Below the pieces are notes generated by a model. It was not told the origin of the DNA, searched no databases, and saw only the letters and a list, made by a program, of their open reading frames with translations. From Odiellus spinosus (taxonomy: Eukaryota; Arthropoda; Arachnida; Opiliones; Phalangiidae), in the NCBI GenBank assembly GCA_963920705.1, contig CAWUCO010000001.1, positions 953,982 through 1,017,981 on the forward strand: 64,000 bases of DNA, written 5' to 3'. Every line of letters starts with the position of its first letter. Within the stretch, counting starts at the first letter, position 1. Positions 38,487 through 64,000 of the stretch are shown piece after piece. Both the position numbers and the translations under genes were made by a program.

Positions 38487-38616
38487 GATTTGGTATCGTT
38501 ACATGCTGTTACTAATTATAACACTGTTCAATCCTTTTCACCTCTTTTCATATGGCAGGCGCGTGGAAACTCAGATTTTAATACAATTTCATTAGGCCCG
38601 AAGCAACTGGATGAAA

Positions 38617-40210: not shown

Positions 40211-40221
40211 AGTATAGAAAT

Positions 40222-41149
40222 TGGCTTAAATTTTTCAATCCACCCCGAGTTTGCAGCAAGCCTAAGCCTATACGGCCCTTTATACCTTTGCTATTTTAAC
40301 TAAATGATATATGGAAAATAGCTTAGCGCGTGCTGTCAACTCAAGCTGCTATTAAACGGTCAAATATTTAGAGAATTTCTTAAATATCTTCAAAACTATC
40401 GCAAATTTAAAATTTAATTTTCAGCTACATTATTAATAAGATTAAGAGACATAATTATAATATTTTGAATTATATTTTAAATTAATATTATGTTTCAATT
40501 CACTAAAAGATATCACGCCATAATGCTACAATGTACTATACTTCCAAAGAGACTATATAAGCGAATCGAATGCCATTATACAGTATCCGATTGTTATAAG
40601 ATCTGGTGGAGATCCCACCTTATCAATGCTCAGACGTTTATCGTAACCCTGAGTGCTCACGTGTCGGCCAATTTACCCTTGGGGGGCGATGTTTGGAGAG
40701 TGGAGTGTGGACCATATTAGTGAGGGACGCCTCGCTAGTATGGCCCGCTGACATCCGACACTAGTGGTTGGACCTTGATGCGTGATGGACGGAGGTGATT
40801 ATAACAGTGGGAGACGTCCCATTGTGTATAATCGCCTTCAACTGTCCAGCATCGAGGTTTGACCGTAAAGTGGATGGTGGAAGGTGATAATATGCAATTG
40901 GAGACGTCCTGTTGCATATCATTGCACGACACTTGAAATTTAATGTTGCAGCCACGCTTAAAGGAGGTAATTCCCGTTAAACGGAATTGAACGATAAGCT
41001 GGTATAATAATGTCTCTAGACTTTTGGCTCTACGAGCTAGGTCACGTGATATCCGCGTACACAGGATATCCGGTTACACAGGAAGTGACACACACACAGA
41101 CACACACACACACAGTGTAAAACCTCCCCCTTCAGTCGGGGAGGTAAAA
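40222..41149. repeat. About 950-bp dispersed element, copy 2, abutting tRNA array 2
   Basis: Same order of blocks as 31018-31965, with a longer (CA)n tract (41088-41113) and a shortened terminal hairpin (ACCTCCCC against GGGGAGGT). Its last bases run directly into the first tRNA-Gly-like unit. Confidence 0.75.
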
Positions 41150-41799
41150 AGTTCCATAGGCCGGGAATCGAACCCGAGCCGCCCGCGTGCATACTACCGC
41201 TGAACCACCGATGCTCGGTTCGTTCGATTAATTCTTGAAGTTCACCAATAACGAGAGGATTTTTGAATCCAAAAAGTTGCGTGGCCGGGAATCGAACCCT
41301 GACCGCGTGGCAGGCGAGCATTCTACCACTGAACTACCGATGCTCGGTTCCTTGGTTAAAATCTTGAAGTTCACCAATAACGAGAGGATTTTTGAATCCA
41401 AGAATTTCCATCGGCCGGGAATCGAACCCGAGCCGCCCGCGAGCATTCTACCACTGAACCTCCGATGCTCGGTTCCTTGGTTAAATTCTTGAAGCTCACC
41501 AATAACGAGAGGATTTTTGAATCCAAAGAGTTGCAACGGCCGGGAATCGCACCCGGGCCGCCCGCGTGGCAGGCGAGCATTCTACCACTGAACCACCGAT
41601 GCTCGCTTCCTTGGTTTAATTCTTGAAGTTCACCAATAACGAGAGGATTTTTGAATCCAAAAAGTTGCATCGGCCGGGAATCGAACCCGGTCCGCCCGCG
41701 TGGCACGCGAGCATTCTACCACTGAACCACCGATGCTCGGTTCCTTGGTTTAATTCTTGAAGTTCACCAATAACGAGTGGATTTTTGAATCCAAATAGT

Positions 41800-41870
41800 T
41801 GCATCGGCCGGGAATCGAACCCGGGCCGCCCGCGTGGCAGGCGAGCATTCTACCACTGAACCACCGATGC
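41800..41870 (-). tRNA. tRNA-Gly(GCC), canonical
   Basis: Delivers glycine to GGC/GGU codons. Complete cloverleaf: acceptor GCATCGG/CCGATGC, A box TGGTTCAGTGG, anticodon arm CTCGC-CTGCCAC-GCGGG, T arm CCGGG-TTCGATT-CCCGG, discriminator A. The downstream T run is TATTT instead of TTTTT. The next unit in the direction of transcription (41666-41736) is full length with T5 but altered at loop position 32. Confidence 0.85.
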
Positions 41871-44870
41871 TCGGTTCCTTGGTTTAATTCTTGTAGTTCT
41901 CCAATAACGAGTGGATTTTTGAATCCAAATAGTTGCATCGGCCGGGAATCGAACCCGGGCCGCCCGCGTGGCAGGCGAGCATTCTACCACTGACCACCGA
42001 TGCTCGGTTCCTTGTTTTAATTCTTGAAGTTCACCAATAACGAGAGGATTTTTGAATCCAAAAAGTTGCAACGGCCGGGAATCGCCCCCGGTCCGCCCGC
42101 GTGGCAGGCGAGCATTCTACCACTGAACTACCGATGCTCGGTTCTTTGGTTTAATTCTTGAAGTGCACCAATAACGAGAGGATTTTTGAGTCCAAAAAGT
42201 TGCATCGGCCCGCGTGGCAGGCGAGCATTCTACCACTGAACCACCGATGCTCGGTTCCCTGGTTTAATTCTTGAAGTTCACCAATAATGAGAGGATTTTT
42301 GAATCCAAAAAGTTCCATAGGCCGGGAATCGAACCCGAGCCGCCCGCGAGCATACTACCACTGAACCACCGATGCTCGGTTCGTTCGATTAATTCTTGAA
42401 GTTCATCAATAACGAGAGGATTTTTGAATCCAAAAAGTTGCGTGGCCGGGAATCGAACCCTGACCGCGTGGCAGGCGAGCATTCTACCACTGAACCACCG
42501 ATGCTCGGTTATTTGGTTAAAATCTTGAAGTTCACCAATAACGAGAGGATTTTTGAATCCAAAAAGTTGCGTGGCCGGGAATCGAACCCTGACCGCGTGG
42601 CAGGCGAGCATTCTACCACTGAACCACCGATGCTCGGTTCCTTGGTTAAAATCTTGAAGTTCACCAATAATGAGAGGATTTTTGAATCCAAGAAGTTCCA
42701 TCGGCCGGGAATCGAACCCGAGCCGCCCGCGAGCATTCTACCACTGAACCTCCGATGCTCGGTTCCTTGGTTAAAATCTTGAAGCTCACCAATAACGAGA
42801 GGATTTTTGAATCCAAAGAGTTGCAACGGCCGGGAATCGCACCCGGGCCGCCCGCGTGGCAGGCGAGCATTCTACCACTGAACCACCGATGCTCGCTTCC
42901 TTGGTTTAATTCTTGAAGTTCACCAATAACGAGAGGATTTTTGAATCCAAAAAGTTGCATCGGCCGGGAATCAAACCCGGTCCGCCCGCGTGGCAGGCGA
43001 GCATTCTACCACTGAACCACCGATGCTCGGTTACTTGGTTTAATTCTTGAATTTCACCAATAACGAGTGGATTTTTGAATCCAAAAAGTTGCATCGGCCG
43101 GGAATCAAACCCGGTCCGCCCGCGTGGCAGGCGAGCATTCTACCACTGAACCACCGATGCTCGCTTCCTTGATTTAATTCTTGAAGTTCACCAATAACGA
43201 GAGGATTTTTGAATCCAAAAAGTATCATCGGCCGGGAATCGAACCCGGTCCGCCCGCGTGGCAGGCGAGCATTGTACCACTGAACCACCGATGCTAGGTT
43301 CTTTGGTTTAATTCTTGAAGTTCACCAATAACGAGAGGATTTTTGAATCCAAAAAGATGCATCGGCCCGCGTGGCAGGCGAGCATTCTAACACTGAACCA
43401 CCGATGCTCGGTTCCTTGGTTTAATTCTTGAAATTCACCAATAACGAGTGGATTTTTGAATCCAAATAGTTGCATCGGCCGGGAATCGAACCCGGGCCGC
43501 CCGCGTGGCAGGCGAGCATTCTACCAATGAACCACCGATGCTCGGTTCCTTGGTTTAATTCTTGAAGTTCACCAATAACGAGAGGATTTTTGAATCCAAA
43601 AAGTTGCATCGACCGGGAATCAAACCCGGGCTGCCCGCGTGGCAGGCGAGCATTCTACCACTGAACCACCGATGCTCGGTTCCTTAGTGTAATTCTTGAA
43701 GTTCACCAATAACGAGAGGATTTTTGAATCCAAAAAGTTGCAACGGCCGGGAATCTCACCCGGGCCGCCCGCGTGGCAGGCGAGCATTCTACCACTGAAC
43801 CACCGATGCTCGGTTCTGTGGTTTAATTCTTGAAGTTCACCAATAACGAGAGGATTTTGAATCCAAAAAGTTGCATCGGCCCGCGTGGCAGGCGAGCATT
43901 CTACCACTGAACCACCGATGCTCGGTTCCCTGGTTTAATTCTTGAAGTTCACCAATAATGAGAGGATTTTTGAATCCAAAAAGTTGCATCGGCCGGGAAT
44001 CGAACCCGAGCCGCCCGCGAGCATACTACCACTGCACCACCGATGCTCGGTTCCTTGGCTAAATTCTTGAAGCTCACCAATAACGAGAGGATTTTTGAAT
44101 CCAAAAAGTATCATCGGCCGGGAATCGAACCCGGTCCGCCCGCGTGGCAGGCGAGCATTGTACCACTGAACCACCGATGCTAGGTTCTTTGGTTTAATTC
44201 TTGAAGTTCACCAATAACGAGAGGATTTTTGAATCCAAAAAGATGCATCGGCCCGCGTGGCAGGCGAGCATTCTAACACTGAACCACCGATGCTCGGTTC
44301 CTTGGTTTAATTCTTGAAATTCACCAATAACGAGTGGATTTTTGAATCCAAATAGTTGCATCGGCCGGGAATCGAACCCGGGCCGCCCGCGTGGCAGGCG
44401 AGCATTCTACCAATGAACCACCGATGCTCGGTTCCTTGGTTTAATTCTTGAAGTTCACCAATAACGAGAGGATTTTTGAATCCAAAAAGTTGCATCGACC
44501 GGGAATCAAACCCGGGCTGCCCGCGTGGCAGGCGAGCATTCTACCACTGAACCACCGATGCTCGGTTCCTTAGTGTAATTCTTGAAGTTCACCAATAACG
44601 AGAGGATTTTTGAATCCAAAAAGTTGCAACGGCCGGGAATCTCACCCGGGCCGCCCGCGTGGCAGGCGAGCATTCTACCACTGAACCACCGATGCTCGGT
44701 TCTGTGGTTTAATTCTTGAAGTTCACCAATAACGAGAGGATTTTGAATCCAAAAAGTTGCATCGGCCCGCGTGGCAGGCGAGCATTCTACCACTGAACCA
44801 CCGATGCTCGGTTCCCTGGTTTAATTCTTGAAGTTCACCAATAATGAGAGGATTTTTGAATCCAAAAAGT

Positions 44871-44932
44871 TGCATCGGCCGGGAATCGAACCCGAGCCGC
44901 CCGCGAGCATACTACCACTGCACCACCGATGC
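44871..44932 (-). pseudogene. Anticodon-less tRNA-Gly, representative of the class
   Basis: A 62-bp version lacking 9 bp that include the anticodon loop, so GCTCGC joins GGGCGG. The acceptor stem, D arm and T arm (TTCGATT) with A- and B-box sequence remain, and T5 follows. It cannot decode but could still bind TFIIIC. It recurs many times, for example near 45373, 47785, 48023, 56364 and 57727. Confidence 0.85.
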
Positions 44933-45263
44933 TCGGTTCCTTGGCTAAATTCTTGAAGCTCACCAATAACGAGAGGATTTTTGAATCCAAAAAGTTGCAT
45001 CGGCCGTGAATCGAACCTGGTCCGCCCGCGTGGCAGGCGAGCATTCTACCACTGTACCACCGATGCTCGGTTCCTTGGTTTAATTCTTGAAGTTCACCAA
45101 TAACGAGAGGATTTTTGAATCCAAAAAGTTGCAACGGCCGGGAATCTCACCCGGGCCGCCCGCGTGGCAGGCGAGCATTCTACCACTGAACCACCGATGC
45201 TCGGTTCTGTGGTTTAATTCTTGAAGTTCACCAATAACGAGAGGATTTTTGAATCCAAAAAGT

Positions 45264-45313
45264 TGCATCGGCCCGCGTGGCAGGCGAGCATTCTACCACT
45301 GAACCACCGATGC
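45264..45313 (-). pseudogene. T-armless tRNA-Gly(GCC), representative of the class
   Basis: A 50-bp version: acceptor stem, D arm and anticodon arm (CTCGC-CTGCCAC-GCGGG) are kept, and the acceptor 3' strand follows directly. The lost 21 bp are exactly the variable loop and T arm, flanked by GGC microhomology. The B box is gone, the A box and T5 terminator remain. Dozens of copies occur across array 2, making up about three of every five units after 59.2 kb. Confidence 0.9.
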
Positions 45314-45995
45314 TCGGTTCCCTGGTTTAATTCTTGAAGTTCACCAATAATGAGAGGATTTTTGAATCCAAAAAGTTGCATCGGCCGGGAATCGAACCCG
45401 AGCCGCCCGCGAGCATTCTACCACTGAACCACCGATGCTCGGTTCCTTGGTTAAATTCTTGAAGCTCACCAATAACGAGAGGATTTTTGAATCCAAAAAG
45501 TTGCATCGGCCCGCGTGGCAGGCGAGCATTCTACCACTGAACCACCGATGCTCGGTTCCTTGGTTTAATTCTTGAAGTTCACCAATAATGAGAGGATTTT
45601 TGAATCCAAAAAGTTGCATCGGCCGGGAATCAAACCCGGTCCGCCCGCGTGGCAGGCGAGCATTCTACCACTGAACCACCGATGCTCGGTTCCTTGGTTT
45701 TATTCTTGAAGTTCACCAATAATGAGAGGATTTTTGAATCCAAAAAGTTGCATCGGCCGGGAATCGAACTCGGGCCGCCCGCGTGGCAGGCGAGCATTCT
45801 ACCACTGAACCACCGATGCTCGGTTCTTTGGTTTAATTCTTCAAGTTCACCAATAACGAGAGGATTTTTGAATCCAAAAAGTTGCATCGGCCCGCGTGGC
45901 AGGCGAGCATTCTACCACTGAACCAACGATGCTCGGTTCCTTGGCTTAATTCTTGAAGTTCACCAATAATGAGAGGATTTTTGAATCCAAAAAGT

Positions 45996-46066
45996 TGCAT
46001 CGGCCGGGAATCAAACCCGGTCCGCCCGCGTTGCAGGCGAGCATTCTACCACTGAACCACCGATGC
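45996..46066 (-). pseudogene. tRNA-Gly body with GCA (Cys) anticodon, copy 1
   Basis: The anticodon loop is CTGCAAC: position 36 is A instead of C, which would read Cys codons UGC/UGU. The T loop is also changed (TTTGATT, one B-box base lost) and the variable loop differs. T5 is kept. Probably a pseudogene spread by array amplification. Confidence 0.8.
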
Positions 46067-46890
46067 TCGGTTCCTTGGTTTAATTCTTGAAGTTCACCAA
46101 TAACGAGTGGATTTTTGAATCCAAATAGTTGCATCGGCCGGGAATCGAACCCGGGCCGCCCGCATGGCAGGCGAGCATTCTACCACTGAACCACCGATGC
46201 TCGGTTCCTTGGGTTAATTCTTGAAGTTCACCAATAACGAGAGGATTTTTGACTCCAAAAAGTTGCATCGGCCCGCGTGGCAGGCGAGCATTCTACCACT
46301 AACCACCGATGCTCGGTTCCTTGGTTTAATTCTTGAAGTTCACCAATAATGAGGGGATTTTTGAATCCAAAAAGTTCCATCGGCCGGGAATCAAACCCGG
46401 TCCGCCCGCGTGGCAGGCGAGCATTCTACCACTGAACCACCGATGCTCGGTTACTTGGTTTAATTCTTGAATTTCACCAATAACGAGTGGATTTTTGAAT
46501 CCAAAAAGTTGCATCGGCCGGGAATCAAACCCGGTCCGCCCGCGTGGCAGGCGAGCATTCTACCACTGAACCACCGATGCTCGCTTCCTTGATTTAATTC
46601 TTGAAGTTCACCAATAACGAGAGGATTTTTGAATCCAAAAAGTATCATCGGCCGGGAATCGAACCCGGTCCGCCCGCGTGGCAGGCGAGCATTGTACCAC
46701 TGAACCACCGATGCTAGGTTCTTTGGTTTAATTCTTGAAGTTCACCAATAACGAGAGGATTTTTGAATCCAAAAAGATGCATCGGCCCGCGTGGCAGGCG
46801 AGCATTCTAACACTGAACCACCGATGCTCGGTTCCTTGGTTTAATTCTTGAAATTCACCAATAACGAGTGGATTTTTGAATCCAAATAGT

Positions 46891-46961
46891 TGCATCGGCC
46901 GGGAATCGAACCCGGGCCGCCCGCGTGGCAGGCGAGCATTCTACCACTGAACCACCGATGC
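46891..46961 (-). tRNA. tRNA-Gly(GCC), canonical
   Basis: Exact canonical 71-bp gene with intact A and B boxes. The adjacent terminator is broken (TATTT). The next unit downstream, near 46778, is T-armless and keeps T5. Confidence 0.85.
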
Positions 46962-47271
46962 TCGCTTCCTTGATTTAATTCTTGAAGTTCACCAATAACG
47001 AGAGGATTTTTGAATCCAAAAAGTATCATCGGCCGGGAATCGAACCCGGTCCGCCCGCGTGGCAGGCGAGCATTGTACCACTGAACCACCGATGCTAGGT
47101 TCTTTGGTTTAATTCTTGAAGTTCACCAATAACGAGAGGATTTTTGAATCCAAAAAGATGCATCGGCCCGCGTGGCAGGCGAGCATTCTAACACTGAACC
47201 ACCGATGCTCGGTTCCTTGGTTTAATTCTTGAAATTCACCAATAACGAGTGGATTTTTGAATCCAAATAGT

Positions 47272-47342
47272 TGCATCGGCCGGGAATCGAACCCGGGCCG
47301 CCCGCGTGGCAGGCGAGCATTCTACCACTGAACCACCGATGC
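47272..47342 (-). tRNA. tRNA-Gly(GCC), canonical
   Basis: Exact canonical gene, 381 bp from the copy at 46891 within a local duplication. Terminator TATTT. The downstream neighbour near 47159 is T-armless with T5. Confidence 0.85.
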
Positions 47343-49777
47343 TCGGTTCCTTGGTTTAATTCTTGAAGTTCACCAATAACGAGAGGATTTTTGAATCCAA
47401 AAAGTTGCATCGACCGGGAATCAAACCCGGGCTGCCCGCGTGGCAGGCGAGCATTCTACCACTGAACCACCGATGCTCGGTTCCTTAGTGTAATTCTTGA
47501 AGTTCACCAATAACGAGAGGATTTTTGAATCCAAAAAGTTGCAACGGCCGGGAATCTCACCCGGGCCGCCCGCGTGGCAGGCGAGCATTCTACCACTGAA
47601 CCACCGATGCTCGGTTCTGTGGTTTAATTCTTGAAGTTCACCAATAACGAGAGGATTTTGAATCCAAAAAGTTGCATCGGCCCGCGTGGCAGGCGAGCAT
47701 TCTACCACTGAACCACCGATGCTCGGTTCCCTGGTTTAATTCTTGAAGTTCACCAATAATGAGAGGATTTTTGAATCCAAAAAGTTGCATCGGCCGGGAA
47801 TCGAACCCGAGCCGCCCGCGAGCATACTACCACTGCACCACCGATGCTCGGTTCCTTGGCTAAATTCTTGAAGCTCACCAATAACGAGAGGATTTTTGAA
47901 TCCAAAAAGTTGCATCGGCCCGCGTGGCAGGCGAGCATTCTACCACTGAACCACCGATGCTCGGTTCCCTGGTTTAATTCTTGAAGTTCACCAATAATGA
48001 GAGGATTTTTGAATCCAAAAAGTTGCATCGGCCGGGAATCGAACCCGAGCCGCCCGCGAGCATTCTACCACTGAACCACCGATGCTCGGTTCCTTGGTTA
48101 AAATCTTGAAGTTCACCAATAACGAGAGGATTTTTGAATCCAAAAAGTTCCATCGGCCGGGAATCGAACCCGAGCCGCCCGCGAGCATTCTACCACTGAA
48201 CCACCGATGCTCGGTTCCTTGGTTAAATTCTTGAAGCTCACCAATAACGAGAGGATTTTTGAATCCAAAAAGTATCATCGGCCGGGAATCGAACCCGGTC
48301 CGCCCGCGTGGCAGGCGAGCATTGTACCACTGAACCACCGATGCTAGGTTCTTTGGTTTAATTCTTGAAGTTCACCAATAACGAGAGGATTTTTGAATCC
48401 AAAAAGTTGCAACGGCCGGGAATCTCACCCGGGCCGCCCGCGTGGCAGGCGAGCATTCTACCACTGAACCACCGATGCTCGGTTCTGTGGTTTAATTCTT
48501 GAAGTTCACCAATAACGAGAGGATTTTGAATCCAAAAAGTTGCATCGGCCCGCGTGGCAGGCGAGCATTCTACCACTGAACCACCGATGCTCGGTTCCCT
48601 GGTTTAATTCTTGAAGTTCACCAATAATGAGAGGATTTTTGAATCCAAAAAGTTGCATCGGCCGGGAATCGAACCCGAGCCGCCCGCGAGCATACTACCA
48701 CTGCACCACCGATGCTCGGTTCCTTGGCTAAATTCTTGAAGCTCACCAATAACGAGAGGATTTTTGAATCCAAAAAGTTGCATCGGCCGTGAATCGAACC
48801 CGGTCCGCCCGCGTGGCAGGCGAGCATTCTACCACTGTACCACCGATGCTCGGTTCCTTGGTTTAATTCTTGAAGTTCACCAATAACGAGAGGATTTTTG
48901 AATCCAAAAAGTTGCAACGGCCGGGAATCTCACCCGGGCCGCCCGCGTGGCAGGCGAGCATTCTACCACTGAACCACCGATGCTCGGTTCTGTGGTTTAA
49001 TTCTTGAAGTTCACCAATAACGAGAGGATTTTTGAATCCAAAAAGTTGCATCGGCCCGCGTGGCAGGCGAGCATTCTACCACTGAACCACCGATGCTCGG
49101 TTCCCTGGTTTAATTCTTGAAGTTCACCAATAATGAGAGGATTTTTGAATCCAAAAAGTTGCATAGGCCGGGAATCGAACCCGAGCCGCCCGCGAGCATT
49201 CTACCACTGAACCACCGATGCTCGGTTCCTTGGTTAAATTCTTGAAGCTCACCAATAACGAGAGGATTTTTGAATCCAAAAAGTTGCATCGGCCCGCGTG
49301 GCAGGCGAGCATTCTACCACTGAACCACCGATGCTCGGTTCCTTGGTTTAATTCTTGAAGTTCACCAATAATGAGAGGATTTTTGAATCCAAAAAGTTGC
49401 ATCGGCCGGGAATCAAACCCGGTCCGCCCGCGTGCAGGCGAGCATTCTACCACTGAACCACCGATGCTCGGTTCCTTGGTTTAATTCTTGAAGTTCACCA
49501 ATAATGAGAGGATTTTTGAATCCAAAAAGTTGCATCGGCCGGGAATCGAACTCGGGCCGCCCGCGTGGCAGGCGAGCATTCTACCACTGAACCACCGATG
49601 CTCGGTTCTTTGGTTTAATTCTTCAAGTTCACCAATAACGAGAGGATTTTTGAATCCAAAAAGTTGCATCGGCCCGCGTGGCAGGCGAGCATTCTACCAC
49701 TGAACCAACGATGCTCGGTTCCTTGGCTTAATTCTTGAAGTTCACCAATAATGAGAGGATTTTTGAATCCAAAAAGT

Positions 49778-49848
49778 TGCATCGGCCGGGAATCAAACCC
49801 GGTCCGCCCGCGTTGCAGGCGAGCATTCTACCACTGAACCACCGATGC
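49778..49848 (-). pseudogene. tRNA-Gly body with GCA (Cys) anticodon, copy 2
   Basis: Same sequence as copy 1, 3782 bp further on, inside the next block of the long higher-order repeat. Confidence 0.8.
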
Positions 49849-52558
49849 TCGGTTCCTTGGTTTAATTCTTGAAGTTCACCAATAACGAGTGGATTTTTGA
49901 ATCCAAATAGTTGCATCGGCCGGGAATCGAACCCGGGCCGCCCGCATGGCAGGCGAGCATTCTACCACTGAACCACCGATGCTCGGTTCCTTGGGTTAAT
50001 TCTTGAAGTTCACCAATAACGAGAGGATTTTTGACTCCAAAAAGTTGCATCGGCCCGCGTGGCAGGCGAGCATTCTACCACTAACCACCGATGCTCGGTT
50101 CCTTGGTTTAATTCTTGAAGTTCACCAATAATGAGGGGATTTTTGAATCCAAAAAGTTCCATCGGCCGGGAATCAAACCCGGTCCGCCCGCGTGGCAGGC
50201 GAGCATTCTACCACTGAACCACCGATGCTCGGTTACTTGGTTTAATTCTTGAATTTCACCAATAACGAGTGGATTTTTGAATCCAAAAAGTTGCATCGGC
50301 CGGGAATCAAACCCGGTCCGCCCGCGTGGCAGGCGAGCATTCTACCACTGAACCACCGATGCTCGCTTCCTTGATTTAATTCTTGAAGTTCACCAATAAC
50401 GAGAGGATTTTTGAATCCAAAAAGTATCATCGGCCGGGAATCGAACCCGGTCCGCCCGCGTGGCAGGCGAGCATTGTACCACTGAACCACCGATGCTAGG
50501 TTCTTTGGTTTAATTCTTGAAGTTCACCAATAACGAGAGGATTTTTGAATCCAAAAAGATGCATCGGCCCGCGTGGCAGGCGAGCATTCTAACACTGAAC
50601 CACCGATGCTCGGTTCCTTGGTTTAATTCTTGAAGTTCACCAATAACGAGTGGATTTTTGAATCCAAATAGTTGCATCGGCCGGGAATCGAACCCGAGCC
50701 GCCCGCGTGGCAGGCGAGCATTCTACCACTGAACCACCGATGCTCGGTTCCTTGGTTTAATTCTTGAAGTTCACCAATAACGAGAGGATTTTTGAATCCA
50801 AAAAGTTGCATCGACCGGGAATCAAACCCGGGCTGCCCGCGTGGCAGGCGAGCATTTTACCACTGAACCACCGATGCTCGGCTCCTTGGTGTAATTCTTG
50901 AAGTTCACCAATAACGAGAGGATTTTTGAATCCAAAAAGTTGCAACGGCCGGGAATCTCACCCGGGCCGCCCGCGTGGCAGGCGAGCATTCTACCACTGA
51001 ACCACCGACGCTCGGTTCTGTGGTTTAATTCTTGAAGTTCACCAATAACGAGAGGATTTTGAATCCAAAAAGTTGCATCGGCCCGCGTGGAAGGCGAGCA
51101 TTCTACCACTGAACCACCGATGCTCGGTTCCCTGTTTAATTCTTGAAGTTCACCAATAATGAGAGGATTTTTGAATCCAAAAAGTTGCATCGGCCGGGAA
51201 TCGAACCCGAGCCGCCCGCGAGCATACTACCGCTGCACCACCGATGCTCGGTTCCTTGGCTAAATTCTTGAAGCTCACCAATAACGAGAGGATTTTTGAA
51301 TCCAAAAAGTTGCATCGGCCGTGAATCGAACCCGGTCCGCCCGCGTGGCAGGCGAGCATTCTACCACTGTACCACCGATGCTCGGTTCCTTGGTTTAATT
51401 CTTGAAGTTCACCAATAACGAGAGGATTTTTGAATCCAAAAAGTTCAACGGCCGGGAATCTCACCCGGGCCGCCCGCGTGGCAGGCGAGCATTCTACCAC
51501 TGAACCACCGATGCTCGGTTCTGTGGTTTAATTCTTGAAGTTCACCAATAACGAGAGGATTTTTGAATCCAAAAAGTTGCATCGGCCGGGAATCGAACCC
51601 GAGCCGCCCGCGAGCATTCTACCACTGAACCACCGATGCTCGGTTCCTTGGTTAAAATCTTGAAGTTCACCAATAACGAGAGGATTTTTGAATCCAAAAA
51701 GTTCCATCGGCCGGGAATCGAACCCGAGCCGCCCGCGAGCATTCTACCACTGAACCACCGATGCTCGGTTCCTTGGTTAAATTCTTGAAGCTCACCAATA
51801 ACGAGAGGATTTTTGAATCCAAAAAGTTGCATCGGCCCGCGTGGTAGGCGAGCATTCTACCACTGAACCACCGATGCTCGGTTCCTTGGTTTAATTCTTG
51901 TAGTTCACCAATAATGAGAGGATTTTTGAATCCAAAAAGTTGCATCGGCCGGGAATCAAACCCGGGCTGCCCGCGTGGCAGGCGAGCATTTTACCACTGA
52001 ACCACCGATGCTCGGCTCCTTGGTGTAATTCTTGACGTTCACCAATAACGAGAGGATTTTTGAATCCAAAAAGTTGCAACGGCCGGGAATCTCACCCGGG
52101 CCGCCCGCGTGGCAGGCGAGCATTCTACCACTGAACCACCGATGCTCGGTTCTGTGGTTTAATTCTTGAAGTTCACCAATAACGAGAGGATTTTGAATCC
52201 AAAAAGTTGCATCGGCCCTTGTGGCAGGCGAGCATTGTAGCACTGAACCACCGATGCTCGGTTCCCTGGTTTAATTCTTGAAGTTCACCAATAATGAGAG
52301 GATTTTTGAATCCAAAAAGTTGCATCGGCCGGGAATCGAACCCGAGCCGCCCGCGAGCATACTACCGCTGCACCACCGATGCTCGGTTCCTTGGCTAAAT
52401 TCTTGAAGCTCACCAATAACGAGAGGATTTTTGAATCCAAAAAGTTGCATCGGCCCGCGTGGCAGGCGAGCATTCTACCACTGAACCACCGATGCTCGGT
52501 TCCTTGGTTTAATTCTTGAAGTTCACCAATAATGAGAGGATTTTTGAATCCAAAAAGT

Positions 52559-52629
52559 TGCATCGGCCGGGAATCGAACCCGGGCCGCCCGCATGGCAGG
52601 CGAGCATTCTACCACTGAACCACCGATGC
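52559..52629 (-). tRNA. tRNA-Gly(GCC) with intact T5 terminator, loop position 38 changed
   Basis: Full-length gene with intact A and B boxes and a TTTTT 3 nt downstream. The only body change seen is U for C at position 38 of the anticodon loop (CTGCCAT). One of the few well-preserved bodies that also keeps its terminator. Confidence 0.75.
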
Positions 52630-54556
52630 TCGGTTCCTTGGGTTAATTCTTGAAGTTCACCAATAACGAGAGGATTTTTGACTCCAAAAAGTTGCATCGG
52701 CCCGCGTGGCAGGCGAGCATTCTACCACTAACCACCGATGCTCGGTTCCTTGGTTTAATTCTTGAAGTTCACCAATAATGAGGGGATTTTTGAATCCAAA
52801 AAGTTCCATCGGCCGGGAATCAAACCCGGTCCGCCCGCGTGGCAGGCGAGCATTCTACCACTGAACCACCGATGCTCGGTTACTTGGTTTAATTCTTGAA
52901 TTTCACCAATAACGAGTGGATTTTTGAATCCAAAAAGTTGCATCGGCCGGGAATCAAACCCGGTCCGCCCGCGTGGCAGGCGAGCATTCTACCACTGAAC
53001 CACCGATGCTCGCTTCCTTGATTTAATTCTTGAAGTTCACCAATAACGAGAGGATTTTTGAATCCAAAAAGTATCATCGGCCGGGAATCGAACCCGGTCC
53101 GCCCGCGTGGCAGGCGAGCATTGTACCACTGAACCACCGATGCTAGGTTCTTTGGTTTAATTCTTGAAGTTCACCAATAACGAGAGGATTTTTGAATCCA
53201 AAAAGATGCATCGGCCCGCGTGGCAGGCGAGCATTCTAACACTGAACCACCGATGCTCGGTTCTGTGGTTTAATTCTTGAAGTTCACCAATAACGAGAGG
53301 ATTTTGAATCCAAAAAGTTGCATCGGCCCGCGTGGCAGGCGAGCATTCTACCACTGAACCACCGATGCTCGGTTCCCTGGTTTAATTCTTGAAGTTCACC
53401 AATAATGAGAGGATTTTTGAATCCAAAAAGTTGCATCGGCCGGGAATCGAACCCGAGCCGCCCGCGAGCATACTACCACTGCACCACCGATGCTCGGTTC
53501 CTTGGCTAAATTCTTGAAGCTCACCAATAACGAGAGGATTTTTGAATCCAAAAAGTTGCATCGGCCGTGAATCGAACCCGGTCCGCCCGCGTGGCAGGCG
53601 AGCATTCTACCACTGTACCACCGATGCTCGGTTCCTTGGTTTAATTCTTGAAGTTCACCAATAACGAGAGGATTTTTGAATCCAAAAAGTTGCAACGGCC
53701 GGGAATCTCACCCGGGCCGCCCGCGTGGCAGGCGAGCATTCTACCACTGAACCACCGATGCTCGGTTCTGTGGTTTAATTCTTGAAGTTCACCAATAACG
53801 AGAGGATTTTTGAATCCAAAAAGTTGCATCGGCCCGCGTGGCAGGCGAGCATTCTACCACTGAACCACCGATGCTCGGTTCCCTGGTTTAATTCTTGAAG
53901 TTCACCAATAATGAGAGGATTTTTGAATCCAAAAAGTTGCATCGGCCGGGAATCGAACCCGAGCCGCCCGCGAGCATTCTACCACTGAACCACCGATGCT
54001 CGGTTCCTTGGTTAAATTCTTGAAGCTCACCAATAACGAGAGGATTTTTGAATCCAAAAAGTTGCATCGGCCCGCGTGGCAGGCGAGCATTCTACCACTG
54101 AACCACCGATGCTCGGTTCCTTGGTTTAATTCTTGAAGTTCACCAATAATGAGAGGATTTTTGAATCCAAAAAGTTGCATCGGCCGGGAATCAAACCCGG
54201 TCCGCCCGCGTGGCAGGCGAGCATTCTACCACTGAACCACCGATGCTCGGTTCCTTGGTTTAATTCTTGAAGTTCACCAATAATGAGAGGATTTTTGAAT
54301 CCAAAAAGTTGCATCGGCCGGGAATCGAACTCGGGCCGCCCGCGTGGCAGGCGAGCATTCTACCACTGAACCACCGATGCTCGGTTCTTTGGTTTAATTC
54401 TTCAAGTTCACCAATAACGAGAGGATTTTTGAATCCAAAAAGTTGCATCGGCCCGCGTGGCAGGCGAGCATTCTACCACTGAACCAACGATGCTCGGTTC
54501 CTTGGCTTAATTCTTGAAGTTCACCAATAATGAGAGGATTTTTGAATCCAAAAAGT

Positions 54557-54627
54557 TGCATCGGCCGGGAATCAAACCCGGTCCGCCCGCGTTGCAGGCG
54601 AGCATTCTACCACTGAACCACCGATGC
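54557..54627 (-). pseudogene. tRNA-Gly body with GCA (Cys) anticodon, copy 3
   Basis: Same changes. It is 4779 bp from copy 2, because this block carries extra units. Confidence 0.8.
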
Positions 54628-55338
54628 TCGGTTCCTTGGTTTAATTCTTGAAGTTCACCAATAACGAGTGGATTTTTGAATCCAAATAGTTGCATCGGCC
54701 GGGAATCGAACCCGGGCCGCCCGCATGGCAGGCGAGCATTCTACCACTGAACCACCGATGCTCGGTTCCTTGGGTTAATTCTTGAAGTTCACCAATAACG
54801 AGAGGATTTTTGACTCCAAAAAGTTGCATCGGCCCGCGTGGCAGGCGAGCATTCTACCACTAACCACCGATGCTCGGTTCCTTGGTTTAATTCTTGAAGT
54901 TCACCAATAATGAGGGGATTTTTGAATCCAAAAAGTTCCATCGGCCGGGAATCAAACCCGGTCCGCCCGCGTGGCAGGCGAGCATTCTACCACTGAACCA
55001 CCGATGCTCGGTTACTTGGTTTAATTCTTGAATTTCACCAATAACGAGTGGATTTTTGAATCCAAAAAGTTGCATCGGCCGGGAATCAAACCCGGTCCGC
55101 CCGCGTGGCAGGCGAGCATTCTACCACTGAACCACCGATGCTCGCTTCCTTGATTTAATTCTTGAAGTTCACCAATAACGAGAGGATTTTTGAATCCAAA
55201 AAGTATCATCGGCCGGGAATCGAACCCGGTCCGCCCGCGTGGCAGGCGAGCATTGTACCACTGAACCACCGATGCTAGGTTCTTTGGTTTAATTCTTGAA
55301 ATTCACCAATAACGAGTGGATTTTTGAATCCAAATAGT

Positions 55339-55409
55339 TGCATCGGCCGGGAATCGAACCCGGGCCGCCCGCGTGGCAGGCGAGCATTCTACCACTGAAC
55401 CACCGATGC
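55339..55409 (-). tRNA. tRNA-Gly(GCC), canonical
   Basis: Exact canonical gene with terminator TATTT. The downstream neighbour (about 55205-55275) is full length with T5 but has CATCGG-only acceptor pairing because its 3' end is altered (GTATCATCGG on the + strand). Confidence 0.85.
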
Positions 55410-55472
55410 TCGCTTCCTTGATTTAATTCTTGAAGTTCACCAATAACGAGTGGATTTTTGAATCCAAATAGT

Positions 55473-55543
55473 TGCATCGGCCGGGAATCGAACCCGGGCC
55501 GCCCGCGTGGCAGGCGAGCATTCTACCACTGAACCACCGATGC
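55473..55543 (-). tRNA. tRNA-Gly(GCC), canonical
   Basis: Exact canonical gene with terminator TATTT. Its downstream neighbour is the canonical copy at 55339, so these are two consecutive intact genes with no T5 between them. Confidence 0.85.
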
Positions 55544-55853
55544 TCGCTTCCTTGATTTAATTCTTGAAGTTCACCAATAACGAGAGGATTTTTGAATCCA
55601 AAAAGTATCATCGGCCGGGAATCGAACCCGGTCCGCCCGCGTGGCAGGCGAGCATTGTACCACTGAACCACCGATGCTAGGTTCTTTGGTTTAATTCTTG
55701 AAGTTCACCAATAACGAGAGGATTTTTGAATCCAAAAAGATGCATCGGCCCGCGTGGCAGGCGAGCATTCTAACACTGAACCACCGATGCTCGGTTCCTT
55801 GGTTTAATTCTTGAAATTCACCAATAACGAGTGGATTTTTGAATCCAAATAGT

Positions 55854-55924
55854 TGCATCGGCCGGGAATCGAACCCGGGCCGCCCGCGTGGCAGGCGAGC
55901 ATTCTACCACTGAACCACCGATGC
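55854..55924 (-). tRNA. tRNA-Gly(GCC), canonical
   Basis: Exact canonical gene with terminator TATTT and a T-armless neighbour with T5 downstream near 55741. It corresponds to the copy at 47272 in the higher-order repeat. Confidence 0.85.
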
Positions 55925-58359
55925 TCGGTTCCTTGGTTTAATTCTTGAAGTTCACCAATAACGAGAGGATTTTTGAATCCAAAAAGTTGCATCGACCGGG
56001 AATCAAACCCGGGCTGCCCGCGTGGCAGGCGAGCATTCTACCACTGAACCACCGATGCTCGGTTCCTTAGTGTAATTCTTGAAGTTCACCAATAACGAGA
56101 GGATTTTTGAATCCAAAAAGTTGCAACGGCCGGGAATCTCACCCGGGCCGCCCGCGTGGCAGGCGAGCATTCTACCACTGAACCACCGATGCTCGGTTCT
56201 GTGGTTTAATTCTTGAAGTTCACCAATAACGAGAGGATTTTGAATCCAAAAAGTTGCATCGGCCCGCGTGGCAGGCGAGCATTCTACCACTGAACCACCG
56301 ATGCTCGGTTCCCTGGTTTAATTCTTGAAGTTCACCAATAATGAGAGGATTTTTGAATCCAAAAAGTTGCATCGGCCGGGAATCGAACCCGAGCCGCCCG
56401 CGAGCATACTACCACTGCACCACCGATGCTCGGTTCCTTGGCTAAATTCTTGAAGCTCACCAATAACGAGAGGATTTTTGAATCCAAAAAGTTGCATCGG
56501 CCCGCGTGGCAGGCGAGCATTCTACCACTGAACCACCGATGCTCGGTTCCCTGGTTTAATTCTTGAAGTTCACCAATAATGAGAGGATTTTTGAATCCAA
56601 AAAGTTGCATCGGCCGGGAATCGAACCCGAGCCGCCCGCGAGCATTCTACCACTGAACCACCGATGCTCGGTTCCTTGGTTAAAATCTTGAAGTTCACCA
56701 ATAACGAGAGGATTTTTGAATCCAAAAAGTTCCATCGGCCGGGAATCGAACCCGAGCCGCCCGCGAGCATTCTACCACTGAACCACCGATGCTCGGTTCC
56801 TTGGTTAAATTCTTGAAGCTCACCAATAACGAGAGGATTTTTGAATCCAAAAAGTATCATCGGCCGGGAATCGAACCCGGTCCGCCCGCGTGGCAGGCGA
56901 GCATTGTACCACTGAACCACCGATGCTAGGTTCTTTGGTTTAATTCTTGAAGTTCACCAATAACGAGAGGATTTTTGAATCCAAAAAGTTGCAACGGCCG
57001 GGAATCTCACCCGGGCCGCCCGCGTGGCAGGCGAGCATTCTACCACTGAACCACCGATGCTCGGTTCTGTGGTTTAATTCTTGAAGTTCACCAATAACGA
57101 GAGGATTTTGAATCCAAAAAGTTGCATCGGCCCGCGTGGCAGGCGAGCATTCTACCACTGAACCACCGATGCTCGGTTCCCTGGTTTAATTCTTGAAGTT
57201 CACCAATAATGAGAGGATTTTTGAATCCAAAAAGTTGCATCGGCCGGGAATCGAACCCGAGCCGCCCGCGAGCATACTACCACTGCACCACCGATGCTCG
57301 GTTCCTTGGCTAAATTCTTGAAGCTCACCAATAACGAGAGGATTTTTGAATCCAAAAAGTTGCATCGGCCGTGAATCGAACCCGGTCCGCCCGCGTGGCA
57401 GGCGAGCATTCTACCACTGTACCACCGATGCTCGGTTCCTTGGTTTAATTCTTGAAGTTCACCAATAACGAGAGGATTTTAGAATCCAAAAAGTTGCAAC
57501 GGCCGGGAATCTCACCCGGGCCGCCCGCGTGGCAGGCGAGCATTCTACCACTGAACCACCGATGCTCGGTTCTGTGGTTTAATTCTTGAAGTTCACCAAT
57601 AACGAGAGGATTTTTGAATCCAAAAAGTTGCATCGGCCCGCGTGGCAGGCGAGCATTCTACCACTGAACCACCGATGCTCGGTTCCCTGGTTTAATTCTT
57701 GAAGTTCACCAATAATGAGAGGATTTTTGAATCCAAAAAGTTGCATCGGCCGGGAATCGAACCCGAGCCGCCCGCGAGCATTCTACCACTGAACCACCGA
57801 TGCTCGGTTCCTTGGTTAAATTCTTGAAGCTCACCAATAACGAGAGGATTTTTGAATCCAAAAAGTTGCATCGGCCCGCGTGGCAGGCGAGCATTCTACC
57901 ACTGAACCACCGATGCTCGGTTCCTTGGTTTAATTCTTGAAGTTCACCAATAATGAGAGGATTTTTGAATCCAAAAAGTTGCATCGGCCGGGAATCAAAC
58001 CCGGTCCGCCCGCGTGCAGGCGAGCATTCTACCACTGAACCACCGATGCTCGGTTCCTTGGTTTAATTCTTGAAGTTCACCAATAATGAGAGGATTTTTG
58101 AATCCAAAAAGTTGCATCGGCCGGGAATCGAACTCGGGCCGCCCGCGTGGCAGGCGAGCATTCTACCACTGAACCACCGATGCTCTGTTCTTTGGTTTAA
58201 TTCTTCAAGTTCACCAATAACGAGAGGATTTTTGAATCCAAAAAGTTGCATCGGCCCGCGTGGCAGGCGAGCATTCTACCACTGAACCAACGATGCTCGG
58301 TTCCTTGGCTTAATTCTTGAAGTTCACCAATAATGAGAGGATTTTTGAATCCAAAAAGT

Positions 58360-58430
58360 TGCATCGGCCGGGAATCAAACCCGGTCCGCCCGCGTTGCAG
58401 GCGAGCATTCTACCACTGAACCACCGATGC
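58360..58430 (-). pseudogene. tRNA-Gly body with GCA (Cys) anticodon, copy 4
   Basis: Same changes. It is 3803 bp from copy 3. No copy of this variant was seen in the 607-bp repeat zone beyond 59.2 kb. Confidence 0.8.
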
Positions 58431-59861
58431 TCGGTTCCTTGGTTTAATTCTTGAAGTTCACCAATAACGAGTGGATTTTTGAATCCAAATAGTTGCATCG
58501 GCCGGGAATCGAACCCGGGCCGCCCGCATGGCAGGCGAGCATTCTACCACTGAACCACCGATGCTCGGTTCCTTGGGTTAATTCTTGAAGTTCACCAATA
58601 ACGAGAGGATTTTTGACTCCAAAAAGTTGCATCGGCCCGCGTGGCAGGCGAGCATTCTACCACTAACCACCGATGCTCGGTTCCTTGGTTTAATTCTTGA
58701 AGTTCACCAATAATGAGGGGATTTTTGAATCCAAAAAGTTCCATCGGCCGGGAATCAAACCCGGTCCGCCCGCGTGGCAGGCGAGCATTCTACCACTGAA
58801 CCACCGATGCTCGGTTACTTGGTTTAATTCTTGAATTTCACCAATAACGAGTGGATTTTTGAATCCAAAAAGTTGCATCGGCCGGGAATCAAACCCGGTC
58901 CGCCCGCGTGGCAGGCGAGCATTCTACCACTGAACCACCGATGCTCGCTTCCTTGATTTAATTCTTGCAGTTCACCAATAACGAGAGGATTTTTGAATCC
59001 AAAAAGTATCATCGGCCGGGAATCGAACCCGGTCCGCCCGCGTGGCAGGCGAGCATTGTACCACTGAACCACCGATGCTAGGTTCTTTGGTTTAATTCTT
59101 GAAGTTCACCAATAACGAGAGGATTTTTGAATCCAAAAAGATGCATCGGCCCGCGTGGCAGGCGAGCATTCTACCAATGAACCACCGATGCTCGGTTCCT
59201 TGGCTTAATTCTTGAAGTTCACCAATAACGAGAGGATTTTTGAATCCAAATAGTTGCATCGGCCGGGAATCGAACCCGGACCGCCAGCGTGGCAGGCGAG
59301 CATTCTACCACTGAACCACCGATGCACGGTTCCTTGGTTTAATTCTTGAAGTTCACCAATAACGAGAGGATTTTTGAATCCAAAAAGTTGCATCGGCCCG
59401 CGTGGCAGGCGAGCATTCTACCACAGAACCACCGATGCTCGGTTCCTTGGTTTAATTCTTGAAGTTCACCAATAATGAGAGGATTTTTGAATCCAAAAAT
59501 TTGCATCGGCCCGCGTGGCAGGCGAGCATTCTACCACTGAATCACCGATGCTCGGTTCCTTGGTTTAATTTTTGAAGTTCACCAATAATGAGAGGATTTT
59601 TGAATCCAAATAGTTGCATCGGCCGGGAATCGAACCCGGGCCGCCCGCGTGGCAGGCGAGCATTCTACCACTGAACTACCGATCCTCGGTTCCTTTGTTT
59701 AATTGTTGAAGTTCACCAATAACGAGAGGATTTTTGAATCCAAAAAGTTGCATCGGCCCGCGTGGCAGGCGAGCATTCTACCACTGAACCACCGATGCTC
59801 GGTTCCTTGGTTTAATTCTTGAAGTTCACCAATAATGAGAGGATTTTTGAATCCAAATAGT

Positions 59862-59932
59862 TGCATCGGCCGGGAATCGAACCCGGGCCGCCCGCGTGGC
59901 AGGCGAGCATTCTACCACTGAACCACCGATGC
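59862..59932 (-). tRNA. tRNA-Gly(GCC), canonical
   Basis: Exact canonical gene in the 607-bp repeat zone with terminator TATTT. The downstream neighbour at 59749-59798 is T-armless with T5. The spacer just upstream of the gene reads CCGT instead of CCGA. Confidence 0.85.
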
Positions 59933-60941
59933 ACGGTTCCTTGGTTTAATTCTTGAAGTTCACCAATAACGAGAGGATTTTTGAATCCAAAAAGTTGCAT
60001 CGGCCCGCGTGGCAGGCGAGCATTCTACCAATGAACCACCGATGCTCGGTTCCTTGGCTTAATTCTTGAAGTTCACCAATAACGAGAGGATTTTTGAATC
60101 CAAATAGTTGCATCGGCCGGGAATCGAACCCGGACCGCCAGCGTGGCAGGCGAGCATTCTACCACTGAACCACCGATGCTCGGTTCCTTGGTTTAATTCT
60201 TGAAGTTCACCAATAACGAGAGGATTTTTGAATCCAAAAAGTTGCATCGGCCCGCGTGGCAGGCGAGCATTCTACCACTGAACCACCGATGCTCGGTTCC
60301 TTGGTTTAATTCTTGAAGTTCACCAATAACGAGAGGATTTTTGAATCCAAAAAGTTGCATCGGCCCGCGTGGCAGGCGAGCATTCTACCACTGAACCACC
60401 GATGCTCGGTTCCTTGGTTTAATTCTTGAAGTTCACCAATAATGGGAGGATTTTTGAATCCAAATAGTTGCATCGGCCGGGAATCGAACCCGGGCCGCCA
60501 GCGTGGCAGGCGAGCATTCTACCACTGAACCACCGATGCACGGTTGCTTGGTTTAATTCTTGAAGTTCACCAATAACGAGAGGATTTTTGAATCCAAAAA
60601 GTTGCATCGGCCCGCGTGGCAGGCGAGCATTCTACCAATGAACCACCGATGCTCGGTTCCTTGGTTTAATTCTTGAAGTTCACCAATAACGAGAGGATTT
60701 TTGAATCCAAAAAGTTGCATCGGCCCGCGTGGCAGGCGAGCATTCTACCACAGAACCACCGATGCTCGGTTCCTTGGTTTAATTCTTGAAGTTCACCAAT
60801 AATGAGAGGATTTTTGAATCCAAAAATTTGCATCGGCCCGCGTGGCTGGCGAGCATTCTACCACTGAACCACCGATGCTCGGTTCCTTGGTTTAATTCTT
60901 GAAGTTCACCAATAATGAGAGGATTTTTGAATCCAAATAGT

Positions 60942-61012
60942 TGCATCGGCCGGGAATCGAACCCGGGCCGCCCGCGTGGCAGGCGAGCATTCTACCACTG
61001 AACCACCGATGC
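60942..61012 (-). tRNA. tRNA-Gly(GCC), canonical
   Basis: Exact canonical gene with terminator TATTT. The T-armless neighbour downstream has a changed anticodon loop (CAGCCAC, loss of U33). Confidence 0.85.
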
Positions 61013-61301
61013 TCGGTTCCTTGGTTTAATTCTTGAAGTTCACCAATAACGAGAGGATTTTTGAATCCAAAAAGTTGCATCGGCCCGCGTGGCAGGCGAG
61101 CATTCTACCACAGAACCACCGATGCTCGGTTCCTTGGTTTAATTCTTGAAGTTCACCAATAATGAGAGGATTTTTGAATCCAAAAATTTGCATCGGCCCG
61201 CGTGGCAGGCGAGCATTCTACCACTGAACCACCGATGCTCGGTTCCTTGGTTTAATTCTTGAAGTTCACCAATAATGAGAGGATTTTTGAATCCAAATAG
61301 T

Positions 61302-61372
61302 TGCATCGGCCGGGAATCGAACCCGGGCCGCCCGCGTGGCAGGCGAGCATTCTACCACTGAACCACCGATGC
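61302..61372 (-). tRNA. tRNA-Gly(GCC), canonical
   Basis: Exact canonical gene, 360 bp from the previous intact copy (134+113+113). Terminator TATTT, T-armless neighbour with T5 downstream. Confidence 0.85.
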
Positions 61373-63842
61373 ACGGTTCCTTGGTTTAATTCTTGAAGTT
61401 CACCAATAACGAGAGGATTTTTGAATCCAAAAAGTTGCATCGGCCCGCGTGGCAGGCGAGCATTCTACCAATGAACCACCGATGCTCGGTTCCTTGGCTT
61501 AATTCTTGAAGTTCACCAATAACGAGAGGATTTTTGAATCCAAATAGTTGCATCGGCCGGGAATCGAACCCGGACCGCCAGCGTGGCAGGCGAGCATTCT
61601 ACCACTGAACCACCGATGCTCGGTTCCTTGGTTTAATTCTTGAAGTTCACCAATAACGAGAGGATTTTTGAATCCAAAAAGTTGCATCGGCCCGCGTGGC
61701 AGGCGAGCATTCTACCACTGAACCACCGATGCTCGGTTCCTTGGTTTAATTCTTGAAGTTCACCAATAACGAGAGGATTTTTGAATCCAAAAAGTTGCAT
61801 CGGCCCGCGTGGCAGGCGAGCATTCTACCACTGAACCACCGATGCTCTGTTCCTTGGTTTAATTCTTGAAGTTCACCAATAATGAGAGGATTTTTGAATC
61901 CAAATAGTTGCATCGGCCGGGAATCGAACCCAGGCCGCCAGCGTGGCAGGCGAGCATTCTACCACTGAACCACCGATGCACGGTTCCTTGGTTTAATTCT
62001 TGAAGTTCACCAATAACGAGAGGATTTTTGAATCCAAAAAGTTGCATCGGCCCGCGTGGCAGGCGAGCATTCTACCAATGAACCACCGATGCTCGGTTCC
62101 TTGGTTTAATTCTTGAAGTTCACCAATAACGAGAGGATTTTTGAATCCAAATAGTTGCATCGGCCGGGAATCGAACCCGGACCGCCAGCGTGGCAGGCGA
62201 GCATTCTACCACTGAACCACCGATGCACGGTTCCTTGGTTTAATTCTTGAAGTTCACCAATAACGAGAGGATTTTTGAATCCAAAAAGTTGCATCGGCCC
62301 GCGTGGCAGGCGAGCATTCTACCACAGAACCACCGATGCTCGGTTCCTTGGTTTAATTCTTGAAGTTCACCAATAATGAGAGGATTTTTGAATCCAAAAA
62401 TTTGCATCGGCCCGCGTGGCAGGCGAGCATTCTACCACTGAACCACCGATGCTCGGTTCCTTGGTTTAATTCTTGAAGTTCACCAATAATGAGAGGATTT
62501 TTGAATCCAAATAGTTGCATCGGCCGGGAATCGAACCCGGGCCGCCAGCGTGGCAGGCGAGCATTCTACCACTGAACCACCGATGCACGGTTCCTTGGTT
62601 TAATTCTTGAAGTTCACCAATAACGAGAGGATTTTTGAATCCAAAAAGTTGCATCGGCCCGCGTGGCAGGCGAGCATTCTACCAATGAACCACCGATGCT
62701 CGGTTCCTTGGCTTAATTCTTGAAGTTCACCAATAACGAGAGGATTTTTGAATCCAAATAGTTGCATCGGCCGGGAATCGAACCCGGACCGCCAGCGTGG
62801 CAGGCGAGCATTCTACCACTGAACCACCGATGCACGGTTCCTTGGTTTAATTCTTGAAGTTCACCAATAACGAGAGGATTTTTGAATCCAAAAAGTTGCA
62901 TCGGCCCGCGTGGCAGGCGAGCATTCTACCACAGAACCACCGATGCTCGGTTCCTTGGTTTAATTCTTGAAGTTCACCAATAATGAGAGGATTTTTGAAT
63001 CCAAAAATTTGCATCGGCCCGCGTGGCAGGCGAGCATTCTACCACTGAATCACCGATGCTCGGTTCCTTGGTTTAATTTTTGAAGTTCACCAATAATGAG
63101 AGGATTTTTGAATCCAAATAGTTGCATCGGCCGGGAATCGAACCCGGGCCGCCCGCGTGGCAGGCGAGCATTCTACCACTGAACTACCGATCCTCGGTTC
63201 CTTTGTTTAATTGTTGAAGTTCACCAATAACGAGAGGATTTTTGAATCCAAAAAGTTGCATCGGCCCGCGTGGCAGGCGAGCATTCTACCACTGAACCAC
63301 CGATGCTCGGTTCCTTGGTTTAATTCTTGAAGTTCACCAATAATGGGAGGATTTTTGAATCCAAATAGTTGCATCGGCCGGGAATCGAACCCGGGCCGCC
63401 AGCGTGGCAGGCGAGCATTCTACCACTGAACCACCGATGCACGGTTGCTTGGTTCAATTCTTGAAGTTCACCAATAACGAGAGGATTTTTGAATCCAAAA
63501 AGTTGCATCGGCCCGCGTGGCAGGCGAGCATTCTACCAATGAACCACCGATGCTCGGTTCCTTGGTTTAATTCTTGAAGTTCACCAATAACGAGAGGATT
63601 TTTGAATCCAAAAAGTTGCATCGGCCCGCGTGGCAGGCGATCATTCTACCACAGAACCACCGATGCTCGGTTCCTTGGTTTAATTCTTGAAGTTCACCAA
63701 TAATGAGAGGATTTTTGAATCCAAAAATTTGCATCGGCCCGCGTGGCTGGCGAGCATTCTACCACTGAACCACCGATGCTCGGTTCCTTGGTTTAATTCT
63801 TGAAGTTCACCAATAATGAGAGGATTTTTGAATCCAAATAGT

Positions 63843-63913
63843 TGCATCGGCCGGGAATCGAACCCGGGCCGCCCGCGTGGCAGGCGAGCATTCTACCACT
63901 GAACCACCGATGC
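63843..63913 (-). tRNA. tRNA-Gly(GCC), canonical
   Basis: The last complete canonical gene before the window end. Terminator TATTT, T-armless neighbour with T5 downstream. Confidence 0.85.
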
Positions 63914-64000
63914 TCGGTTCCTTGGTTTAATTCTTGAAGTTCACCAATAACGAGAGGATTTTTGAATCCAAAAGGTTGCATCGGCCCGCGTGGCAGGCGA

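Follow-up and report, generated by a model that had tools for sequence, protein, structure and literature searches.

The window analyzed here, a stretch of 64,000 nucleotides from Odiellus spinosus, carries two parts of a tandem array of tRNA-Gly(GCC)-derived units, both on the minus strand. The left part, array 1, occupies positions 25663 to 28672 and was delimited by anchors, TRF, unit types, divergence and sequence; the right part, array 2, extends from 41146 to 64000 (anchors, TRF and the count of tRNA 5' ends), and about 12.5 kb of nested repeats (28673 to 41145) lie between the two. Elsewhere in the window, an exon-like ORF at 2862 to 3287 on the plus strand encodes PADR1 N-terminal and zinc-ribbon domains, a pairing that we take to be that of PARP1, and this ORF is possibly a piece of a host gene. 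An ORF at 4734 to 6983 on the minus strand encodes a MULE/ZSWIM-like transposase with a long acidic repeat tail, and another at 16746 to 17783 on the plus strand encodes a DDE_Tnp_4 domain protein that presumably resembles HARBI1.

The number of units was determined with two independent anchors. A fuzzy spacer anchor located 205 tandem units on the same strand, 23 in array 1 and 182 in array 2, with spacings of 111 to 136 bp inside each part. The tRNA 5'-end anchor gave 205 units too, and of its 204 spacings 203 were no longer than 140 bp, the single jump being 12,597 bp. ARAGORN called 119 tRNAs (18 in array 1 and 101 in array 2), and Rfam at its gathering score found 115 (21 and 94, respectively) with scores of up to 66.7 bits; every one of these calls and matches was on the minus strand. 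TRF reported periods of 134, 113, 125 and 247 bp, among others, over the array stretch. The first-pass annotation of this DNA had placed about 180 units in 22.9 kb, plus about 23 in array 1, and had described them as lying on one strand and as continuing at the window end. All of this was borne out. Array 2 runs off the window with the final bases still within a unit, and the start that the annotation gave for array 2, 41150, was right within a few bases (about 41,146). The unit statistics below take the 203 complete units, anchor to anchor, of the 205 anchors (22 in array 1, which is the more diverged part, and 181 in array 2), leaving out the outer-edge stretches. Among these 203 units there are 101 distinct sequences.

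The unit of about 134 bp is made up of a 71-nt tRNA and a spacer of about 63 bp, arranged head to tail. The column consensus of the 203 units reads as a 71-nt tRNA-Gly(GCC), AC-TTTTT, then GGATTCAAAAATCCTCTCGTTATTGGTG and AACTTCAAGAATTAAACCAAGGAACCGA up to the next tRNA, with the T5 Pol III terminator 2 bases 3' of the tRNA. The segment GGATTCAAAAATCCTCTCGTTATTGGTG behind the terminator contains a 5-bp dyad, GGATT/AATCC, and has fewer distinct variants than any other part of the unit (for example, at anchor 41243). For single units we used a strict gene test, which allows at most one gap and demands that all 21 stem pairs be standard, that the B box read RGTTCRANTCC, and that a run of four or more T residues lie within 20 nt of the 3' end. 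The consensus tRNA, which presumably resembles the arthropod type, satisfies this test, with 21 of 21 standard stem pairs and a canonical B box. A unit with the exact consensus was predicted to fold into acceptor, D and T stems plus a shifted anticodon arm, at -35.2 kcal/mol. Because the consensus is that of a perfect tRNA gene, the founder of the array is, judged by its sequence, an ordinary Pol III tRNA gene.

The repeats between the two array parts are nested. The outermost element has inverted copies of ACCTCCCCGAC at 28695 and 41135. A second copy of the same element lies inside the first at 29238 to 31961, as seen by self-comparison and from its edge sequences; its outer limits are approximate and its ends carry ACCTCCCCGAC at 29260 and 31944-31954. 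The sequence CTAACCTAACC, which we take to resemble the arthropod telomere repeat, is found at 28722-28732 and 29293-29303, just inside the left ends of both copies. Self-comparison also revealed a 6.2-kb element at 32534 to 38718 whose 74-bp inverted ends match perfectly. Inside this element, two 1.8-kb copies with 99.2% identity lie in inverted orientation, and a DDE_Tnp_4 transposase ORF was found in the one of these two copies that was scanned. A 1-kb array of 30-bp repeats is also contained in this element. A scan of viral contigs with the transposase gave one pattern match and no relative, which says little in such a collection.

When the array edges on both sides of the repeats were joined, they matched an intact part of the array, 42,205 to 42,458, over 254 bases at 98.4% with 4 mismatches; the join was made by a script, and this gap-free match was the best of four joints tried. 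Units at the two edges are also related. Four units at the edge of array 1 (27,994, 28,128, 28,375 and 28,509) carry the changes C46A, T52G, T53G and A67T. Just one full unit of array 2, at 42,032 near its left edge, has all four changes, and it is among the array-2 units closest to each of the four, with 3 to 4 differences. The unit without a T arm at 28,262, which sits amid these edge units, is closest to 60,208 and 61,648 instead. Because the joined flanks match intact array and related units are found at both edges, the two parts are one array and not two, and the simplest reading is that the repeat element inserted into a formerly continuous array.

Alignment of the 203 complete units showed that 113 of them (20 in array 1 and 93 in array 2) contain a full-length tRNA, whereas the T arm is missing from 64 and the anticodon loop from 23, and 3 have some other change. 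The T-armless type, for example at 43359 to 43407 (minus strand), arises from a 21-bp deletion that removes the variable loop, the T arm and, with it, the B box; the type without the anticodon loop, for example at 42314 to 42375 (minus strand), has a 9-bp deletion. Thus, either the T arm or the anticodon loop is gone from 87 of 203 units, which have been multiplied in that state. The length of the 21-bp deletion is that of the variable loop plus the T arm, and the 7-bp acceptor stem is still able to pair. We considered whether the T-armless units encode a conserved RNA of their own. An identical 49-nt core is present in 27 of the 64, but the predicted fold has the acceptor stem and no D or anticodon arms, and the idea was rejected. 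A real tRNA-Cys(GCA) was rejected as well, since the four ARAGORN calls of this type all represent a single haplotype, which carries C35A and C46A and has an altered B box (C54T). The units had been described in the first-pass annotation as tRNA-Gly(GCC) genes. Their derivation from tRNA-Gly stands, and the word "genes" does not: 90 of 203 are deletion derivatives, and most of the 113 full-length units have lesions.

The strict gene test, a rule that is not calibrated on a working tRNA array, was passed by 4 of 203 units, 2 of 22 in array 1 and 2 of 181 in array 2. When the invariant bases T8, A14, GG and T33 were added, 3 units passed, 1 in array 1 and 2 in array 2. The two in array 2 are at 41666 to 41736 (unit 41631, with all stem pairs, the B box and T5) and at 52559 to 52629 (unit 52525). 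Those in array 1 are at 26687 to 26757 (unit 26653), which has the stems, B box and terminator but is altered in the invariant D-loop GG, and at 27089 to 27159 (unit 27055), where C2T still allows a G-U pair; all four are on the minus strand and were examined with Rfam and by haplotype. A relaxed rule, requiring a canonical B box, tolerating one broken pair and ignoring the terminator, was passed by 40 of 203 units, 35 in array 2 and 5 in array 1. Most units do not have the intact cloverleaf, B box and terminator of a functional tRNA cluster. These results serve as a warning that the counts of tRNA finders, 119 and 115 here, exceed the number of usable genes in such arrays.

The exact consensus tRNA occurs in 10 units, all in array 2, and all 10 have CTATTT in place of CTTTTT and therefore no T4 terminator. 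One of them, at 46891 to 46961 on the minus strand, was analyzed with Rfam (71 nt, 66.7 bits), by haplotype and by folding. Among the full units of array 2, a T4 or longer run was missing from 29 of 46 with a canonical B box versus 2 of 47 in which the B box is changed. These 29 units are not independent events, since the CTATTT units appear to belong to a single lineage that spread by block copying. The next unit downstream was of the T-armless type in 21 of 31 full units without a terminator versus 15 of 62 full units with one.

We then compared the distribution of base changes along the unit. Each distinct change was counted once per column and regions were compared by permuting columns, which lowers the weight of block copying; the P values are approximate, as the units are related through block copying even though variants were counted in this way. 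In the 113 full units, the tRNA had 61 distinct variants in its 71 sites, against 59.7 expected. When the arrays were taken alone, the tRNA had more variants than expected in array 1 (43 versus 35.5, P = 0.03) and slightly fewer in array 2 (28 versus 32.3, P = 0.15). Disabling variants, defined under the simplified rule set of this analysis as those that break a pair or change an invariant loop base, accounted for 39 of the 61 (0.64), compared with 0.57 expected for random changes at the observed transition share. By both measures, the gene part is under no more constraint than the spacer, and we see no clear sign in these sequences that tRNA function filters the changes.

Within the tRNA, the B box of the full units had 12 distinct variants in 11 sites versus 9.2 expected (P = 0.20) and was not depleted. 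When mismatch frequency was used as the measure, the worst-kept 27-base stretch of both arrays was at about tRNA positions 45 to 71, which contain the B box. Positions 1 to 27 of the tRNA were better kept by frequency in array 2 than the other stretches listed, being exact in 68 of 93 full units; this conservation, together with the slight deficit of variants in array 2, could also be explained by weak selection. The spacer beside the tRNA 5' end had 38 variants versus 22.7 expected and was richer in changes than any part of the tRNA. Decay of CpG sites was considered as the main driver and rejected: among 11 CpG sites in the 113 full units, two had many units with C-to-T or G-to-A changes (27 and 29 units), and the others had 0 to 8.

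Unit-by-unit comparison within array 2 showed higher-order repeats with lags of 30, 68 and 98 units. A block of 3.7 kb, or about 29 units, at 46801 to 50500 recurs 8,582 bp further on at 55383 to 59082 (both on the minus strand) with 99.78% identity, that is, 8 mismatches and no gap over 3,700 bp. A second block of 2,250 bp recurs at 99.64% (7 mismatches and 1 gap), and a third of 2,050 bp at 99.85% (3 mismatches). The array is therefore homogenized block-wise, and this recurrence is the pattern expected of unequal exchange or block amplification, a mechanism that we infer from the sequence.

Taken together, these data suggest that the array is probably satellite DNA, derived from one tRNA-Gly(GCC) gene with its flank, that grows by unequal exchange while the gene part decays roughly neutrally. 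It is a long head-to-tail array of a short unit, and the unit derives from a tRNA gene. The sequence shows that two small deletions, of 21 bp and 9 bp, arose inside the head-to-tail unit of about 134 bp and were multiplied along with it, that multi-kilobase blocks were duplicated, and that the array was split by a repeat element in which further insertions are nested. We propose that the array grew through unequal crossing over or a comparable exchange. The tRNA parts would now be mostly pseudogenes decaying roughly neutrally, and tRNA output would not be the reason why the array is kept. Pol III may still transcribe a minority of units, some of them as two-unit read-through transcripts, because the exact-consensus tRNA units have lost their own terminator. 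A satellite was one of the readings put forward in the first-pass annotation, and it gains support from the decay of the units, the multiplication of the deletion types and the higher-order blocks.

Several observations stand against this reading or its details. The 40 units that pass the relaxed rule do so with the terminator ignored, and in principle the 3' processing of tRNAs is able to trim long trailers. The tRNA in array 2 is slightly short of variants, and its positions 1 to 27 are well kept there. As for the decay itself, the B box is not significantly worse than expected by distinct variants, and the 5' spacer exceeds every part of the tRNA in changes. If the satellite origin is right, a single locus shows a housekeeping Pol III gene turning into a satellite, with the founder, the multiplied deletions, the higher-order blocks and the transposon insertion all readable.

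One alternative is that the satellite is kept for a candidate DNA-binding box in the spacer, GGATTCAAAAATCCTCTCGTTATTGGTG, which in the consensus lies 29 to 56 bp upstream of each tRNA, and that the tRNA is a passenger. The 27 sites behind the terminator had 9 distinct variants in the full units versus 22.7 expected (P of about 0.0001) and, in array 1, 4 versus 13.5 (P = 0.0006). Furthermore, the spacer 28-mer was found within 2 edits upstream of all 205 tRNA 5' ends and was exact in 106. However, the depletion was weaker in array 2 (6 versus 12.3, P = 0.02), where by mismatch frequency the box is worse kept than tRNA positions 1 to 27 (43 versus 68 of 93 exact), and over all units two positions in the box are highly variable, with A in 21 and 53 of 203. 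The same picture would arise from a mutational cold spot or by chance during block copying, and we consider selection for the box unlikely.

A related possibility, which we judge rather improbable, is that the array is kept for the 27- to 28-bp spacer box and not for tRNA, and that expansion was possible only for lineages of units whose tRNA gene was disabled, since working tRNA-Gly genes in their hundreds would do harm or drain Pol III factors. The gene could be disabled in several ways: the B box lost or changed, the anticodon lost, the stems broken, or the terminator lost. Units without a terminator would, on this account, yield read-through transcripts joined to the next downstream unit. 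If the spacer box, or the near exclusion between B box and terminator, is real, the array would offer a testable case that only crippled tRNA genes become satellites.

The array could also be a functional one, in which working tRNA-Gly(GCC) genes supply the dosage needed for a Gly-rich product such as silk or cuticle. The perfect consensus gene, the calls of ARAGORN and Rfam, the 10 exact-consensus tRNAs in array 2 and the 40 units that pass the relaxed rule are all consistent with this proposal, which was made in the first-pass annotation. It is disfavored, and we hold it to be very unlikely: only 4 of 203 units pass the strict test, the 87 units without T arm or anticodon loop have been multiplied as such, and the tRNA is not conserved beyond the spacer, its variants having accumulated at the spacer rate.

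The same annotation suggested a chromatin boundary, at which clustered B boxes would recruit TFIIIC and the tRNA product would be irrelevant. A canonical B box is indeed present in 82 of 203 units (56 full-length and 26 other), and array 2 holds 71 of these in its 22.9 kb, a density of about one per 320 bp. But across the units the B box is not conserved: 64 of 203 have lost it to deletion, and 57 of the remaining 139 carry a changed form. It shows no depletion of variants, and it sits in the worst-kept 27 bases. B-box binding thus does not look like the feature for which these sequences are kept, and a boundary function is disfavored as highly improbable. The chance is fainter still that a short array was inflated through misassembly, for although near-identical blocks of 2 to 3.7 kb are what assemblers can duplicate, the 101 distinct sequences make the expansion of a single unit by assembly error, named in the first-pass annotation as a refuter, unlikely, the copies in the three block pairs are set apart by 8, 7 and 3 mismatches and by one gap, and the joined array edges match a separate intact place in the array.

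Outside the array, a tRNA-derived SINE was rejected as an explanation, since no dispersed unit beyond the two array parts was found in the 64-kb window with either the spacer or the tRNA 5'-end anchor. Exact scans with two spacer words in viral contigs, and with one spacer word and one tRNA word in bacterial and archaeal genomes, gave no match, an absence that says little in such collections.

Satellites are known to arise from Pol III genes, as from 5S rDNA in fishes, and tRNA gene clusters are known too. Among the latter are the nuclear Ser/Tyr and Pro clusters of Arabidopsis and the tRNA clusters of zebrafish, which are called as intact genes. The array analyzed here resembles these clusters in having many tRNA genes of one or a few isoacceptors in tandem on one strand, but it differs in that 4 of 203 units pass the strict gene test. 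With tRNA-derived SINEs it shares a tRNA-derived repeat with internal A and B boxes; unlike them, it is strictly tandem, head to tail, has a terminator 2 bases behind the tRNA, and is confined within the window to the array itself. The array also resembles the 5S rDNA-derived satellites of fishes, in which a Pol III gene and its spacer are likewise repeated in tandem and homogenized in blocks, and in which most copies have a degenerate gene part. The differences are that the founder here would be a tRNA-Gly(GCC) gene, that the spacing is 111 to 136 bp, and that two internal deletions of tRNA arms or the anticodon loop were multiplied with the unit. Judged by its sequence organization, the array appears to be a fresh case of a known kind, a satellite derived from a Pol III gene.
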